64,000 bases of DNA. It comes from Prauserella aidingensis (lineage in GTDB: Bacteria; Actinomycetota; Actinomycetes; Mycobacteriales; Pseudonocardiaceae). A program made the position numbers and the translations under genes. Below the pieces are notes generated by a model. That model ran no database searches, was not told the origin of the DNA, and saw nothing but the letters and a program-made list of their open reading frames with translations. Shown here piece after piece: positions 31,824 through 33,581 of this stretch. The stretch covers positions 1 to 64,000 of the forward strand of contig NZ_JAMTCN010000004.1 of NCBI RefSeq assembly GCF_024171865.1. The letters run 5' to 3'. Numbering within the stretch: position 1 is the stretch's first letter; each line of letters opens with the position of its first letter.

Positions 31824-32225
31824 ATGCCGGATTCCCCGTCGCCCGTCCGTCCACTCGACCCGACCGGCGGCCCCACTGAGCGTCCCGCGGCGGGCGGAGC
31901 CGCAACGGCAGGCGTGATGGTGCTGCTCACGCCGGTGCACGGGTTCGGACTCGTGCTCGCGCTGCTGAGCGCGGGATCGTCCGACGCGAGCGGGCAGGGC
32001 GGCCCGTTCCGCGCCTGCACCGCCGACTCCGTGTCCTGCACCGGACCGAACGTCCCGCTGATCGTCGCCGTCGCCCTCGCGATGCTCGCCTGCCTGGGCA
32101 TCGCCGTCCGGGCGGGAATGCGCACGGGGCGGCTGCCTCCGCGGTGGCGCCACCGCGGCATGCTGTCGTGTGCCGGTGTCGCCGCCGCCGTCGTGGTGGA
32201 CACGGTGGCCGTGCTCGTCCGATGA
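31824..32225 (+). CDS. Hypothetical membrane protein
   Basis: I do not recognise this protein. Its 133 residues predict three membrane segments: TAGVMVLLTPVHGFGLVLALL, VPLIVAVALAMLACLGIAV, and MLSCAGVAAAVVVDTVAVLV. Between the first two is a short loop with two cysteines (FRACTADSVSC) that could form a disulfide outside. The ATG at 31824 lacks a ribosome-binding site, but codon-position GC and composition look coding. It is on the plus strand upstream of the aroG leader, divergent from pfkA. Confidence is moderate because of the start and the lack of a family. Confidence 0.6.
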   Translation: MPDSPSPVRPLDPTGGPTERPAAGGAATAGVMVLLTPVHGFGLVLALLSAGSSDASGQGGPFRACTADSVSCTGPNVPLIVAVALAMLACLGIAVRAGMRTGRLPPRWRHRGMLSCAGVAAAVVVDTVAVLVR

Positions 32226-32301
32226 GGACCCACCGGGAGGGCCGCGGCGACCACTTCGACGTAGACATAGGTCACTGCACCGGTAAAGCTAGGTTAGCCT
32301 C

Positions 32302-32320
32302 TGCTACGGTCCAGGGCGTG
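32302..32320 (+). promoter_or_regulatory. Candidate extended -10 promoter of the aroG leader
   Basis: TGC-TACGGT (32302-32310) is an extended -10 type element whose expected start (about 32317-32318) coincides with the GTG of the leader peptide, implying a leaderless mRNA. The -35 side is weak. A rival -10 (TAGCCT, 32295-32300) lies just upstream. Confidence 0.4.
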
Positions 32321-32383
32321 CAGCGCTATTACTGGTTTACCTGGCCGGCCCGGAGTGGGCCGGTCGGCGTGAACCTGCGCTGA
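32318..32383 (+). CDS. Aromatic-rich leader peptide of the DAHP synthase gene
   Basis: The 21-residue reading frame VQRYYWFTWPARSGPVGVNLR has five aromatic residues in positions 4-9: Tyr-Tyr-Trp-Phe-Thr-Trp. Such a density upstream of an aromatic-pathway entry gene is the hallmark of a ribosome-mediated attenuator. It starts with GTG, has no good ribosome-binding site and is probably read from a leaderless transcript. The stop is 77 nt before aroG. Segment 32345-32351 inside the frame pairs perfectly with 32357-32363 (5-nt loop). A second hairpin (32397-32404 with 32413-32420) follows the stop. Charged-tRNA supply would decide which hairpin forms. Corynebacterium glutamicum is known to use an aroR leader upstream of its DAHP synthase gene, a useful precedent. 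Confidence 0.75.
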   Translation: MQRYYWFTWPARSGPVGVNLR

Positions 32384-32456
32384 CCACCATCCACTTCGAG
32401 CCGGACGTCAAGCCGGCTCGGTGACGCCCGGGGCGGCTTGCGGAAAGGAAGTCACC
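32345..32456 (+). promoter_or_regulatory. aroG attenuator region: hairpins 1:2, 3:4 and RBS stem
   Basis: Stem 1:2 is CCGGCCC (32345-32351) with GGGCCGG (32357-32363). Stem 3:4 is CGAGCCGG (32397-32404) with CCGGCTCG (32413-32420). Segment 2 can alternatively pair with 32413-32419 with one G-U pair. GGTGAC (32420-32425) pairs with GTCACC (32451-32456), placing the aroG ribosome-binding site (about 32444-32450) in the loop. No U-tract follows, so control may be translational or Rho-dependent. Confidence 0.55.
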
Positions 32457-32459
32457 CCG

Positions 32460-33581
32460 ATGAGCACTCTGCCGACCACGGCATCCCCCGAGTCCGCGGC
32501 GCCAGGAGCGGCCGCGCACACCGGGATCCCGCTGGACGACCACCGCATCACCCACGTGAGCCCGTTGATGTCGCCCGCCCTGCTCCGCCAGGAACATCCC
32601 GTCGACGACACCGTCGCCCGGACGGTCACCGCGGGCCGGGACTCCGCCGTCGACATCCTCGCGGGCCGGGACGACCGGCTGCTGGTCGTCGCCGGGCCCT
32701 GCTCGGTCCACGACCCCGAGGCCGCGCTCGACTACGCCCGGAAACTGGCCGCCCACGCCGAGAAGGTCCGCGGCGAACTGCACATCGTGATGCGCGTGTA
32801 CTTCGAGAAACCCCGCACCACGCTCGGGTGGAAGGGCCTCATCAACGACCCCGATCTCGACGGCGGCTTCGCGGTCAACAAGGGCCTACGGCTCGCGCGC
32901 CAGTTGCTGCTCGACGTCTCCGCGCTCGGCCTGCCGGTCGGCTGCGAGTTCCTCGACCCGATCATTCCGCAGTACATCGCCGACGTCGTGACGTGGGGCT
33001 CCATCGGCGCGCGCACCGCGGCCAGCCAGGTGCACCGCCAGCTGTGCAGCGGCCTGTCGATGCCGGTCGGCATCAAGAACTCCACCGACGGCGACGTGCA
33101 GGTCGCCGTCGACGCCACACGCGCGGCGGCGGCGAGCCACGTCTTCCCCGGTATCACCACGGACGGCGTGTCCGCGCTGCTGACCACGGCCGGGAACGAG
33201 GACTGCCACGTCATCCTCCGCGGCGGCAGCGCGGGCCCGAACCACGACGCCGACACGGTCGCGGACACGCTCGCACGGCTGCGCAAGGCGGGGCTGCCCG
33301 AACGCCTCGTCGTCGACGCCAGCCACGGCAACAGCGGTAAGGACCACGTGCGCCAGGCCGGTGTCGTGGCCGAGCTGGCCGAGCGCATCGGCGCGGGCGA
33401 GCCCGGCATCTCCGGTCTGATGGTCGAGAGCTTCCTCGCCGACGGCAGGCAGGACCTCACCCTCGGGCGCGCGGCCGATCTCGACTACGGCCGCAGCATC
33501 ACCGACGCGTGCCTGGACTGGCCGACGACGGCGTCGCTGCTCGACGACCTCGCCGCGGCCGTCCGCACCCGCCGGGGCTGA
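32460..33581 (+). CDS. aroG: 3-deoxy-7-phosphoheptulonate synthase, type I (AroG/F/H class)
   Basis: The 373-residue enzyme condenses phosphoenolpyruvate and erythrose 4-phosphate, the first step of the shikimate pathway. It is clearly type I: LLVVAGPCSVHDPEAALDYA, MRVYFEKPRTTLGWKGLINDP, GCEFLDPIIPQYIADVVTWGSIGARTAASQVHRQL, SMPVGIKNSTDG, HVILRGG, VDASHGNSGKD, and IGAGEPGISGLMVESFL are those of E. coli AroG, with metal ligands Cys in GPCS, His in ASHGN and Glu in ESFL. M. tuberculosis AroG (Rv2178c) is the unrelated type II. The ATG at 32460 has AAAGGAA upstream. Regulation is probably by the leader peptide at 32318. A perfect 17-bp hairpin follows the stop. Confidence 0.95.
   Translation: MSTLPTTASPESAAPGAAAHTGIPLDDHRITHVSPLMSPALLRQEHPVDDTVARTVTAGRDSAVDILAGRDDRLLVVAGPCSVHDPEAALDYARKLAAHAEKVRGELHIVMRVYFEKPRTTLGWKGLINDPDLDGGFAVNKGLRLARQLLLDVSALGLPVGCEFLDPIIPQYIADVVTWGSIGARTAASQVHRQLCSGLSMPVGIKNSTDGDVQVAVDATRAAAASHVFPGITTDGVSALLTTAGNEDCHVILRGGSAGPNHDADTVADTLARLRKAGLPERLVVDASHGNSGKDHVRQAGVVAELAERIGAGEPGISGLMVESFLADGRQDLTLGRAADLDYGRSITDACLDWPTTASLLDDLAAAVRTRRG

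Follow-up and report, generated by a model that had tools for sequence, protein, structure and literature searches.

In the trpL and pheL leaders of Escherichia coli, control codons stand just before a chain of competing hairpins, and a stalled ribosome decides the outcome. In Corynebacterium glutamicum, the aroR leader upstream of aroF carries the run Phe-Tyr-Phe (Neshat et al. 2014), and stalling there is reported to raise expression (PMC4046766; PMC11802643). The aroR operon is described as responding to Phe limitation, with Tyr availability having no effect (PMC11802643). Leader genes have also been proposed to serve as antennas for reinitiation (PMC4833913).

Here, we examine a leader upstream of aroG, the type I 3-deoxy-D-arabino-heptulosonate 7-phosphate (DAHP) synthase gene of Prauserella aidingensis. 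The gene lies in a stretch of 64,000 nucleotides (nt) of contig NZ_JAMTCN010000004.1 (assembly GCF_024171865.1, positions 1 to 64,000), which we refer to as the window. The closest described system is aroR: in both, an aromatic-codon leader peptide is encoded directly upstream of a DAHP synthase gene. We think it fairly likely that the leader is a ribosome-stalling attenuator of aroG whose output, in this lineage, is translational. Its reading frame, its aromatic codons (often the rare TTT and TAT), and its spacing to a −10 hexamer are conserved, and three of its RNA pairings (B:3, 4:5, and 5:6) covary. The features to which we refer, all on the plus strand, are as follows.

32305 to 32310, plus strand: putative −10 box TACGGT, spaced 7 nt from the GTG of the leader, predicting a transcription start near 32318
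32318 to 32383, plus strand: leader peptide open reading frame (ORF), GTG start, 21 codons plus TGA, reading VQRYYWFTWPARSGPVGVNLR and then stop (MQRYYWFTWPARSGPVGVNLR)
32327 to 32344, plus strand: control codons TAT TAC TGG TTT ACC TGG (Tyr4 Tyr5 Trp6 Phe7 Thr8 Trp9)
32334 to 32341, plus strand: segment A (GGTTTACC), overlapping the Trp6 and Phe7 codons; predicted, from the fold only, to pair with segment D (32366 to 32375) and so lengthen the leader hairpin
32345 to 32359, plus strand: segment B (CCGGCCCGGAGTGGG), 5′ arm and loop of the leader hairpin; its partner is either C (hairpin 1:2) or segment 3
32357 to 32367, plus strand: segment C, forming the 3′ side of the leader hairpin in folds; alternatively, 32362 to 32370 would pair with segment E (32377 to 32385), nested inside B:3
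32390 to 32404, plus strand: segment 3 (TCCACTTCGAGCCGG); partner of B in the proposed ON state and of 4 in the proposed OFF state
32409 to 32421, plus strand: segment 4 and an extension on its 5′ side (CAAGCCGGCTCGG); alternative partners 3 and 5
32428 to 32440, plus strand: segment 5 (CCGGGGCGGCTTG); pairs with 4 or 6
32442 to 32449, plus strand: Shine-Dalgarno sequence (SD) of aroG (GGAAAGGA), assigned from sequence
32449 to 32459, plus strand: segment 6 (AAGTCACCCCG); with segment 5 forms the hairpin over the ribosome-binding site (RBS), 32429 to 32459 (−17.7 kcal/mol), ending at the aroG ATG
32460 to 33581, plus strand: aroG/aroF, type I DAHP synthase, 373 amino acids (TIGR00034, 8.2e-145)

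The aromatic leader frame is conserved upstream of DAHP synthase genes

A first-pass annotation, made from the letters of the window, had pointed to a 21-codon frame with Tyr-Tyr-Trp-Phe-Thr-Trp at codons 4 to 9 before a type I DAHP synthase gene. The frame is there, and its stop lies 76 nt from the aroG ATG (32460), one fewer than the 77 nt first given. A short ORF with end-product codons thus precedes a biosynthetic gene, which, at the sequence level, is the arrangement expected of an attenuator.

We collected the regions upstream of DAHP synthase relatives from a part of the listed matches, spread over genera, and the counts below refer to fetched loci; those on the minus strand were reverse-complemented before analysis. 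A leader frame was called when at least 3 aromatic residues fell within 8, at most 300 nt upstream of the gene, and the reverse strand and dinucleotide-shuffled sequences served as controls. The frame count covers 205 loci (45 of them non-actinobacterial). Named actinobacterial loci stand outside it, and one member of the window's genus (G004) was left out, being represented by contig-edge fragments only (L008, L009).

All six genus members, the window included, have the frame (reverse strand, 0/6; shuffled mean, 1.4). For Pseudonocardiaceae, the family in which the first-pass annotation had proposed to look for conserved aromatic codons, the frame is found in 69 of 73 orthologs (reverse strand, 1/73; shuffled mean, 3.2). 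At a stricter cut of 4 aromatic residues in 8, these orthologs still give 54/73 on the forward strand, with 0 on the reverse strand and 0.0 after shuffling. The frame is also present in 30 of 32 loci from other families of the order (reverse, 5/32; shuffled mean, 2.4), in 8 of 9 loci of family f34 (0/9; 0.2), and in all 4 other loci of the class (0/4; 1.0). Counts are low in families f31 (2/12) and f16 (0/6) and among divergent loci of the window's family (5/18), in which paralogs and distant orthologs are mixed. Because the frame is conserved relative to both the reverse-strand and the shuffled controls, we conclude from these sequence comparisons that it is more than a chance occurrence.

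A survey of 189 actinobacterial loci for the canonical pattern found 145 with and 44 without it (paralogs, f16, f31, genus g26, and some misses). Some of the leader counts are lower bounds, as the regular expressions missed real leaders at L227, L026, and L189. The four family orthologs without the frame (L134, L137, L138, and L147) all belong to g26, where, by eye, the frame seems to have decayed, with traces of the leader end and of segment 3 still in place; g26 is perhaps a natural loss of the sensor. No canonical leader was found at eight second or third DAHP synthase copies from leader-bearing genomes (L174, L175, L177, L178, L179, L185, L186, and L192), which are the fetched copies to which this check was confined. 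Relatives in f31 (L229 to L239, L241) and f16 (L212 to L217) are likewise without the canonical leader, and control of DAHP synthase in these families may therefore differ.

Aromatic content persists in the control codons, with a preference for rare TTT and TAT

After removal of identical leaders, and of L184 and L042 as miscalls, 123 distinct actinobacterial leaders were retained. The two miscalls were also kept out of the B:3 and TAnnnT tests described below, yet remain in the terminator table. The first-pass annotation had singled out that a single run encodes Tyr, Trp, and Phe together, and this holds widely: all three occur near the run in 114 of the 123 leaders. The exceptions are four f34 leaders without Trp, four leaders of genus g25 without Tyr, and L025 without Phe. 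The order of residues shifts among leaders (YFWF, YWRF, YRWF, WYAYF, FYFWF) while their aromatic content persists. Trp9 of the window is an additional Trp particular to its genus.

Codon choice within the run is skewed as well. Within leaders, TTT accounts for 126 of 188 core Phe codons (6 of 327 Phe codons in 38 genes of the window) and TAT for 112 of 132 core Tyr codons (15 of 226 Tyr codons in the same genes). TTT is also the final aromatic codon of 107/123 leaders. This preference for rare codons may sharpen stalling, or it may serve the pairing of segment A.

A putative −10 hexamer at conserved spacing suggests a leaderless transcript

In 121 of the 123 distinct leaders, a TAnnnT hexamer lies with its end 5 to 9 nt upstream of an in-frame start, and 98 hexamer-start pairs have a spacing of exactly 7 nt. 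The same spacing occurs before only 6 of 987 other upstream ATG or GTG codons, a comparison in which several in-frame starts per leader could count and the background scored one start each. All six genus members carry a TACGGT or TATGGT box; the leader begins with GTG in the window versus ATG in the five relatives. A promoter scan gave no sigma-70 match, and the −10 assignment rests on the TAnnnT test. Because the hexamer precedes the start at this distance in nearly every leader, the leader ORF probably heads a leaderless transcript, with transcription predicted to begin from or beside the GTG. Several of eight leader peptides of Streptomyces lividans are described as leaderless (PMC8079986).

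Three helices that can exclude one another or their rivals covary across genera

The first-pass annotation had also proposed competing hairpins. Two of them, 1:2 (core, 32345 to 32363) and 3:4 (32397 to 32404 with 32413 to 32420), are present, and both appear in the minimum-energy fold. The general idea of a competing-hairpin switch holds up, and its wiring does not: our tests point to pairing of segment B (32345 to 32359) with 32390 to 32404, and to 4:5 and 5:6. B:3 and 3:4 share bases, as do 4:5 and 5:6, so the members of each pair are mutually exclusive.

Pairing was scored without gaps and within the segments, against permutations in which partners were shuffled between sequences and descent was left uncorrected. 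A one-per-stratum version drew on 76 sequences grouped into 25 strata; six strata consist of a single named locus each, and four of those six loci are Rhodococcus. Across 51 groups, which overlap in part (for example, named Mycobacterium loci and genus g53), B:3 scores 28.3 versus 23.5 when permuted (mean z = 8.3). In the window, 14 of 15 B:3 positions pair, G-U included; examples elsewhere are GGCTCCGGGTGG:CCACCCGGAGCC in L223 and GTTGGCTCTGAAGG:CCTTCAGAGCCAAC in L210. In the terminator-less set of 25 strata, B:3 gives little signal over its full length (mean z = 1.3, median P = 0.10); outside its near-invariant core, the mean z is 2.5 (median P = 0.007).

The two downstream helices score above permuted pairings in both versions of the test. 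Among 71 distinct terminator-less sequences, 4:5 scores 16.9 versus 14.6 permuted (0 of 2,000 permutations as good, z = 7.0; 25 strata, mean z = 4.6), and 5:6 scores 18.1 versus 15.6 (0 of 2,000, z = 7.2; 25 strata, mean z = 4.1). Compensated forms of 4:5 recur across genera (CAAGCCG/CGGCTTG, CAGACCG/CGGTCTG, CGAGCCG/CGGCTCG, GGACCG/CGGTCC, and GACCGG/CCGGTC). A control pairing segment 4 with the SD region was flat in the 71 sequences (z = 0.28), and the negative controls over the 25 strata ranged from −0.25 to 0.39. A swap test with RNAduplex, leader against post-leader in 114 sequences, placed the own pair best in 4/114; this test was replaced because its windows are long and GC-rich.

Two pairings of the initial scheme were rejected, as comparison of own with permuted pairing in relatives gave them no support. 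By eye, segments 2 and 4 could form 8 pairs if G-U is allowed, but the relatives give a mean z of 0.37 (median P = 0.35, 25 strata). For the third stem, which had been thought to enclose the aroG RBS, GGTGAC (32420 to 32425) and GTCACC (32451 to 32456) are both there, yet different bases are paired in the predicted RBS hairpin (32429 to 32459), and the stem is not supported in relatives (mean z = 0.84, median P = 0.23, 25 strata). By eye, among the six genus members, it is perfect in the window alone, two keep it with G-U, and three break it.

Proposed switch and its agreement with predicted folds

We propose that the leader ORF would be translated from the leaderless 5′ end while the transcript emerges. 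When charged Tyr-, Trp-, or Phe-tRNA is scarce, a ribosome would stall on codons 4 to 7 of the control run and mask segment A, whereupon B would pair with 3, as covariation and folding suggest. With segment 3 so occupied, 4 would pair with 5. Once 4:5 has formed, segment 5 could not pair with 6, and the aroG RBS would therefore stay open. If the leader is instead translated through to its stop, 3:4 and 5:6 would form and the RBS would be closed. We infer translation, stalling, this order of events, starvation as the ON condition, and control at the level of translation.

The minimum-energy fold of 32318 to 32480 has −82.3 kcal/mol (z = −3.66; of 200 shuffled sequences, one folded equally well), with subfolds of −21.4 (4:5), −17.0 (3:4), and −17.7 kcal/mol (5:6); the 4:5 hairpin shares bases with both others. 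When the window transcript is folded at 124 to 133 nt, so that it ends a little beyond segment 5, predicted pairing under a stall at Tyr4 is 0.93 to 0.97 for B:3 and 0.95 to 1.00 for 4:5, and a ribosome at the stop gives 0.98 to 1.00 for 3:4 and 0.00 to 0.02 for 4:5. In these folds of the growing transcript, the 5:6 values and the B:3 value for a plain stall at Trp6 (first base masked) are set aside. The six genus sequences show, on average, the same contrast between stall and stop. At 92 nt, B:3 in the window reaches 0.98, and among 71 sequences B:3 rises under stall in 60.

Other results weigh against this switch, beginning with the uncorrected descent in the permutation tests. At least 6 contiguous Watson-Crick pairs in 4:5 are formed by only 37 of 71 sequences (4.6% with segment 5 shuffled). 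Permutation does not support B:C, C:E, or A0:E (z = −0.8 to −1.7), and 3:4 is near-invariant and hence beyond the reach of the test. In the folds, 3:4 outdoes B:3 at 104 nt (segment 4 out, 5 not) even under stall (0.95 to 1.00), and a ribosome-free transcript also reaches 0.92 for 4:5 at 133 nt. Once segment 6 has emerged, imposing B:3 does not rescue 4:5, which falls to at most 0.22 at 148 nt and is near 0 at 160 nt. In the 163-nt fold, every state is predicted to have 5:6 at 0.99 to 1.0, and 3:4 is still at 0.61 to 0.84 under a stall at Tyr4, Trp6, or Phe7, a value that hinges on the chosen 3′ end. The SD lies mostly in a loop, 0.75 unpaired in every state, and a stall at Trp9 would cover B, so that the folds predict no switch there. 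Across the 71 sequences, 4:5 rises under stall in 28 and falls in 11, and 3:4 moves as predicted in 22 and oppositely in 19. In the Amycolatopsis-like genus g16, 4:5 changes in the direction opposite to the model (0.01 under stall versus 0.49 at the stop); the RBS hairpins of this genus nonetheless score high (L117, L124).

Folding thus bears out the proposed switch only in part. Translation attenuators of the erm type release a sequestered RBS when a ribosome stalls; here, the 5:6 helix over the RBS covaries, and its release is predicted only in short, growing transcripts. Because 3:4 beats B:3 at 104 nt at equilibrium, B:3 would have to persist kinetically. Similarly, because equilibrium folds revert to 5:6, the ON state would have to be kinetic and caught by an initiating ribosome.

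The output seems to differ among lineages

The first-pass annotation had noted that no U-tract is present, and a scan of 32150 to 32500 found no terminator-like site, which makes a translational outcome plausible. A strict terminator scan of the relatives was likewise negative in the window's genus (0/6), g25 (0/12), g27 (0/7), g5 (0/10), and g65 (0/4). U-run terminator hairpins follow segment 3 in Mycobacterium (3/3), Micromonospora (3/3), g53 (4/4), g20 (4/4), f15 (5/6), f34 (4/8), and others. Single terminator calls in g16, g80, and L014 look spurious, and the strict scan misses some terminators visible by eye (L025, 0/1; f34, 4/8; Dietzia, 0/2). Both outputs occur inside the window's own family, in which g20, g11, and g30 have terminators. 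Because terminators are present in some lineages and absent from others, one sensor seems to have been joined to two kinds of output, and because the U-tract terminators of the Mycobacterium and Micromonospora relatives are absent here, the output in the window's lineage is probably translational. Folds of Mycobacterium- and Streptomyces-like leaders showed no helix overlap by which B:3 could oppose the terminator. The B:3 helix of L205, L222, and further leaders with a terminator adjoins that terminator without overlap, and the usual exclusion between antiterminator and terminator is not seen.

The same helices could be read as transcription attenuation without a U-tract, which we consider unlikely. 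In that case, 3:4 (or 5:6) would be a non-canonical or Rho-assisted terminator, B:3 a plain antiterminator, and effects at the RBS incidental. The near-invariance of 3:4 fits this explanation, as do the dominance of 3:4 and 5:6 in full-length folds in most states, the intrinsic terminators that the above-mentioned Mycobacterium, Micromonospora, g53, and g20 relatives bear right after segment 3 with the same B:3, and the description of aroR as transcriptional (PMC11802643). It is opposed by the lack of terminator-like sites in the window region, its genus, g25, and g5, and it leaves unexplained why 4:5 and 5:6, which end at the aroG start codon, covary.

An arrest peptide, in which the aromatic run and a PAxGGxVG..R tail would stall the ribosome on an aromatic ligand, like TnaC, is very improbable. 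The tail after the run is conserved within the family, but it also encodes segments B, C, and E, and RNA pairing can explain this conservation in part; order and tail vary by lineage (PAPGG, LALEGPA, KPVTSP, EPAMKR) while the aromatic codons persist. We give equally little credence to a leader that merely aids constitutive translation by ribosome delivery or reinitiation and senses nothing, in the manner of the antennas mentioned above, as it would need to conserve neither aromatic codons nor rare TTT and TAT, and 76 nt is a long distance for reinitiation.

Returning to the stalling attenuator with translational output, we tentatively offer a wider proposal, whose chances we put a little below even. 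One DAHP synthase leader family would stand before nearly all examined orthologs in Pseudonocardiaceae and its order, with an echo in Proteobacteria, and would read Tyr, Trp, and Phe jointly through a single codon run, as an OR gate at the pathway entry. Across most of the Pseudonocardiaceae examined, and in the Rhodococcus/Nocardia group as well, its output would have been rewired from transcription termination to a relay of mutually exclusive helices (B:3 and 4:5 versus 3:4 and 5:6) by which the RBS is opened or closed.

Relation to described systems and significance

Unlike aroR, which is reported to be transcriptional and to have Phe-Tyr-Phe, the window's lineage combines Tyr, Trp, and Phe, lacks a U-tract terminator, and has the additional 4:5 and 5:6 pairings at the RBS. 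The relatives G502 and G520, with WRFYF leaders, have aromatic codons and a B:3-like pairing (L189, by eye; L190). The likeness to E. coli trpL and pheL lies in control codons placed just before the competing hairpins; the leader differs from them in its lack of a terminator, its probably translational output, its three amino acids in one run, and its probable leaderless start.

T-boxes sense tRNA directly. Actinobacterial ileS T-boxes resemble the present leader in that SD sequestration replaces a terminator, and differ in having no leader peptide (PMC1262725). The same work, a 2005 survey of amino acid genes in Actinobacteria, reports that Phe and Tyr operons are not preceded by conserved RNA structures (PMC1262725). 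Translation attenuation is mentioned for cysteine genes of Mycobacterium smegmatis (PMC13236596); there, too, amino acid codons of an upstream ORF are tied to translation attenuation in an actinobacterium, with Cys codons and cys genes in place of the aromatic ones. The uORFC-13-1 motif upstream of aroF in Acholeplasma, likewise located before a DAHP synthase gene, is a putative upstream ORF that contains one or more Phe codons (PMC8632094). It differs in being confined to Acholeplasma, in standing beside an apparent terminator, and in its sequence.

Rfam 15 gave a single match at E ≤ 1 for 32150 to 32600, to a microRNA family far below its gathering score, and no match at gathering score in 20 relative loci. 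Our searches of the open-access literature in PMC turned up no account of a leader before a DAHP synthase gene in Pseudonocardiaceae, and none of a translational form. A 2010 comparative attenuation study by Lopatovskaya and colleagues, cited in PMC4833913, may list some of these leaders.

If our reading is correct, an entry enzyme of the shikimate pathway would be set, in many Actinobacteria, by a leader responding jointly to Tyr, Trp, and Phe, and the clade would offer a natural series of one attenuator changing its output from a terminator to a ribosome-binding site. Many of these bacteria produce aromatic natural products, and the leader would then bear on precursor supply for them. In the P. 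aidingensis genome, aroG is the sole PF00793 match. A type II DAHP synthase is also encoded elsewhere in the genome, and by eye no aromatic leader is visible among its upstream frames.

Aromatic leader frames also precede non-actinobacterial DAHP synthase genes (L039, L044, L048, L049, L055, L056, L061, L070, L087, and others), with MSAKFYFYFFWYLRPLADREG and MNASCRSFYFWYYGFPMPLAEEGSRSP as examples. At least 5 aromatic residues fall within 8 in 24 of the 45 non-actinobacterial loci, and 18 of these 24 combine Phe, Trp, and Tyr; at 4 aromatic residues in 8, the count is 25/45 forward versus 1 on the reverse strand and 4.4 after shuffling. In about 20 of the 24, a U-run hairpin follows the stop (by eye). 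The resemblance of these leaders to the actinobacterial ones may reflect either homology or convergence. Their PLAE codons look pairable with the 5′ arm of the terminator.

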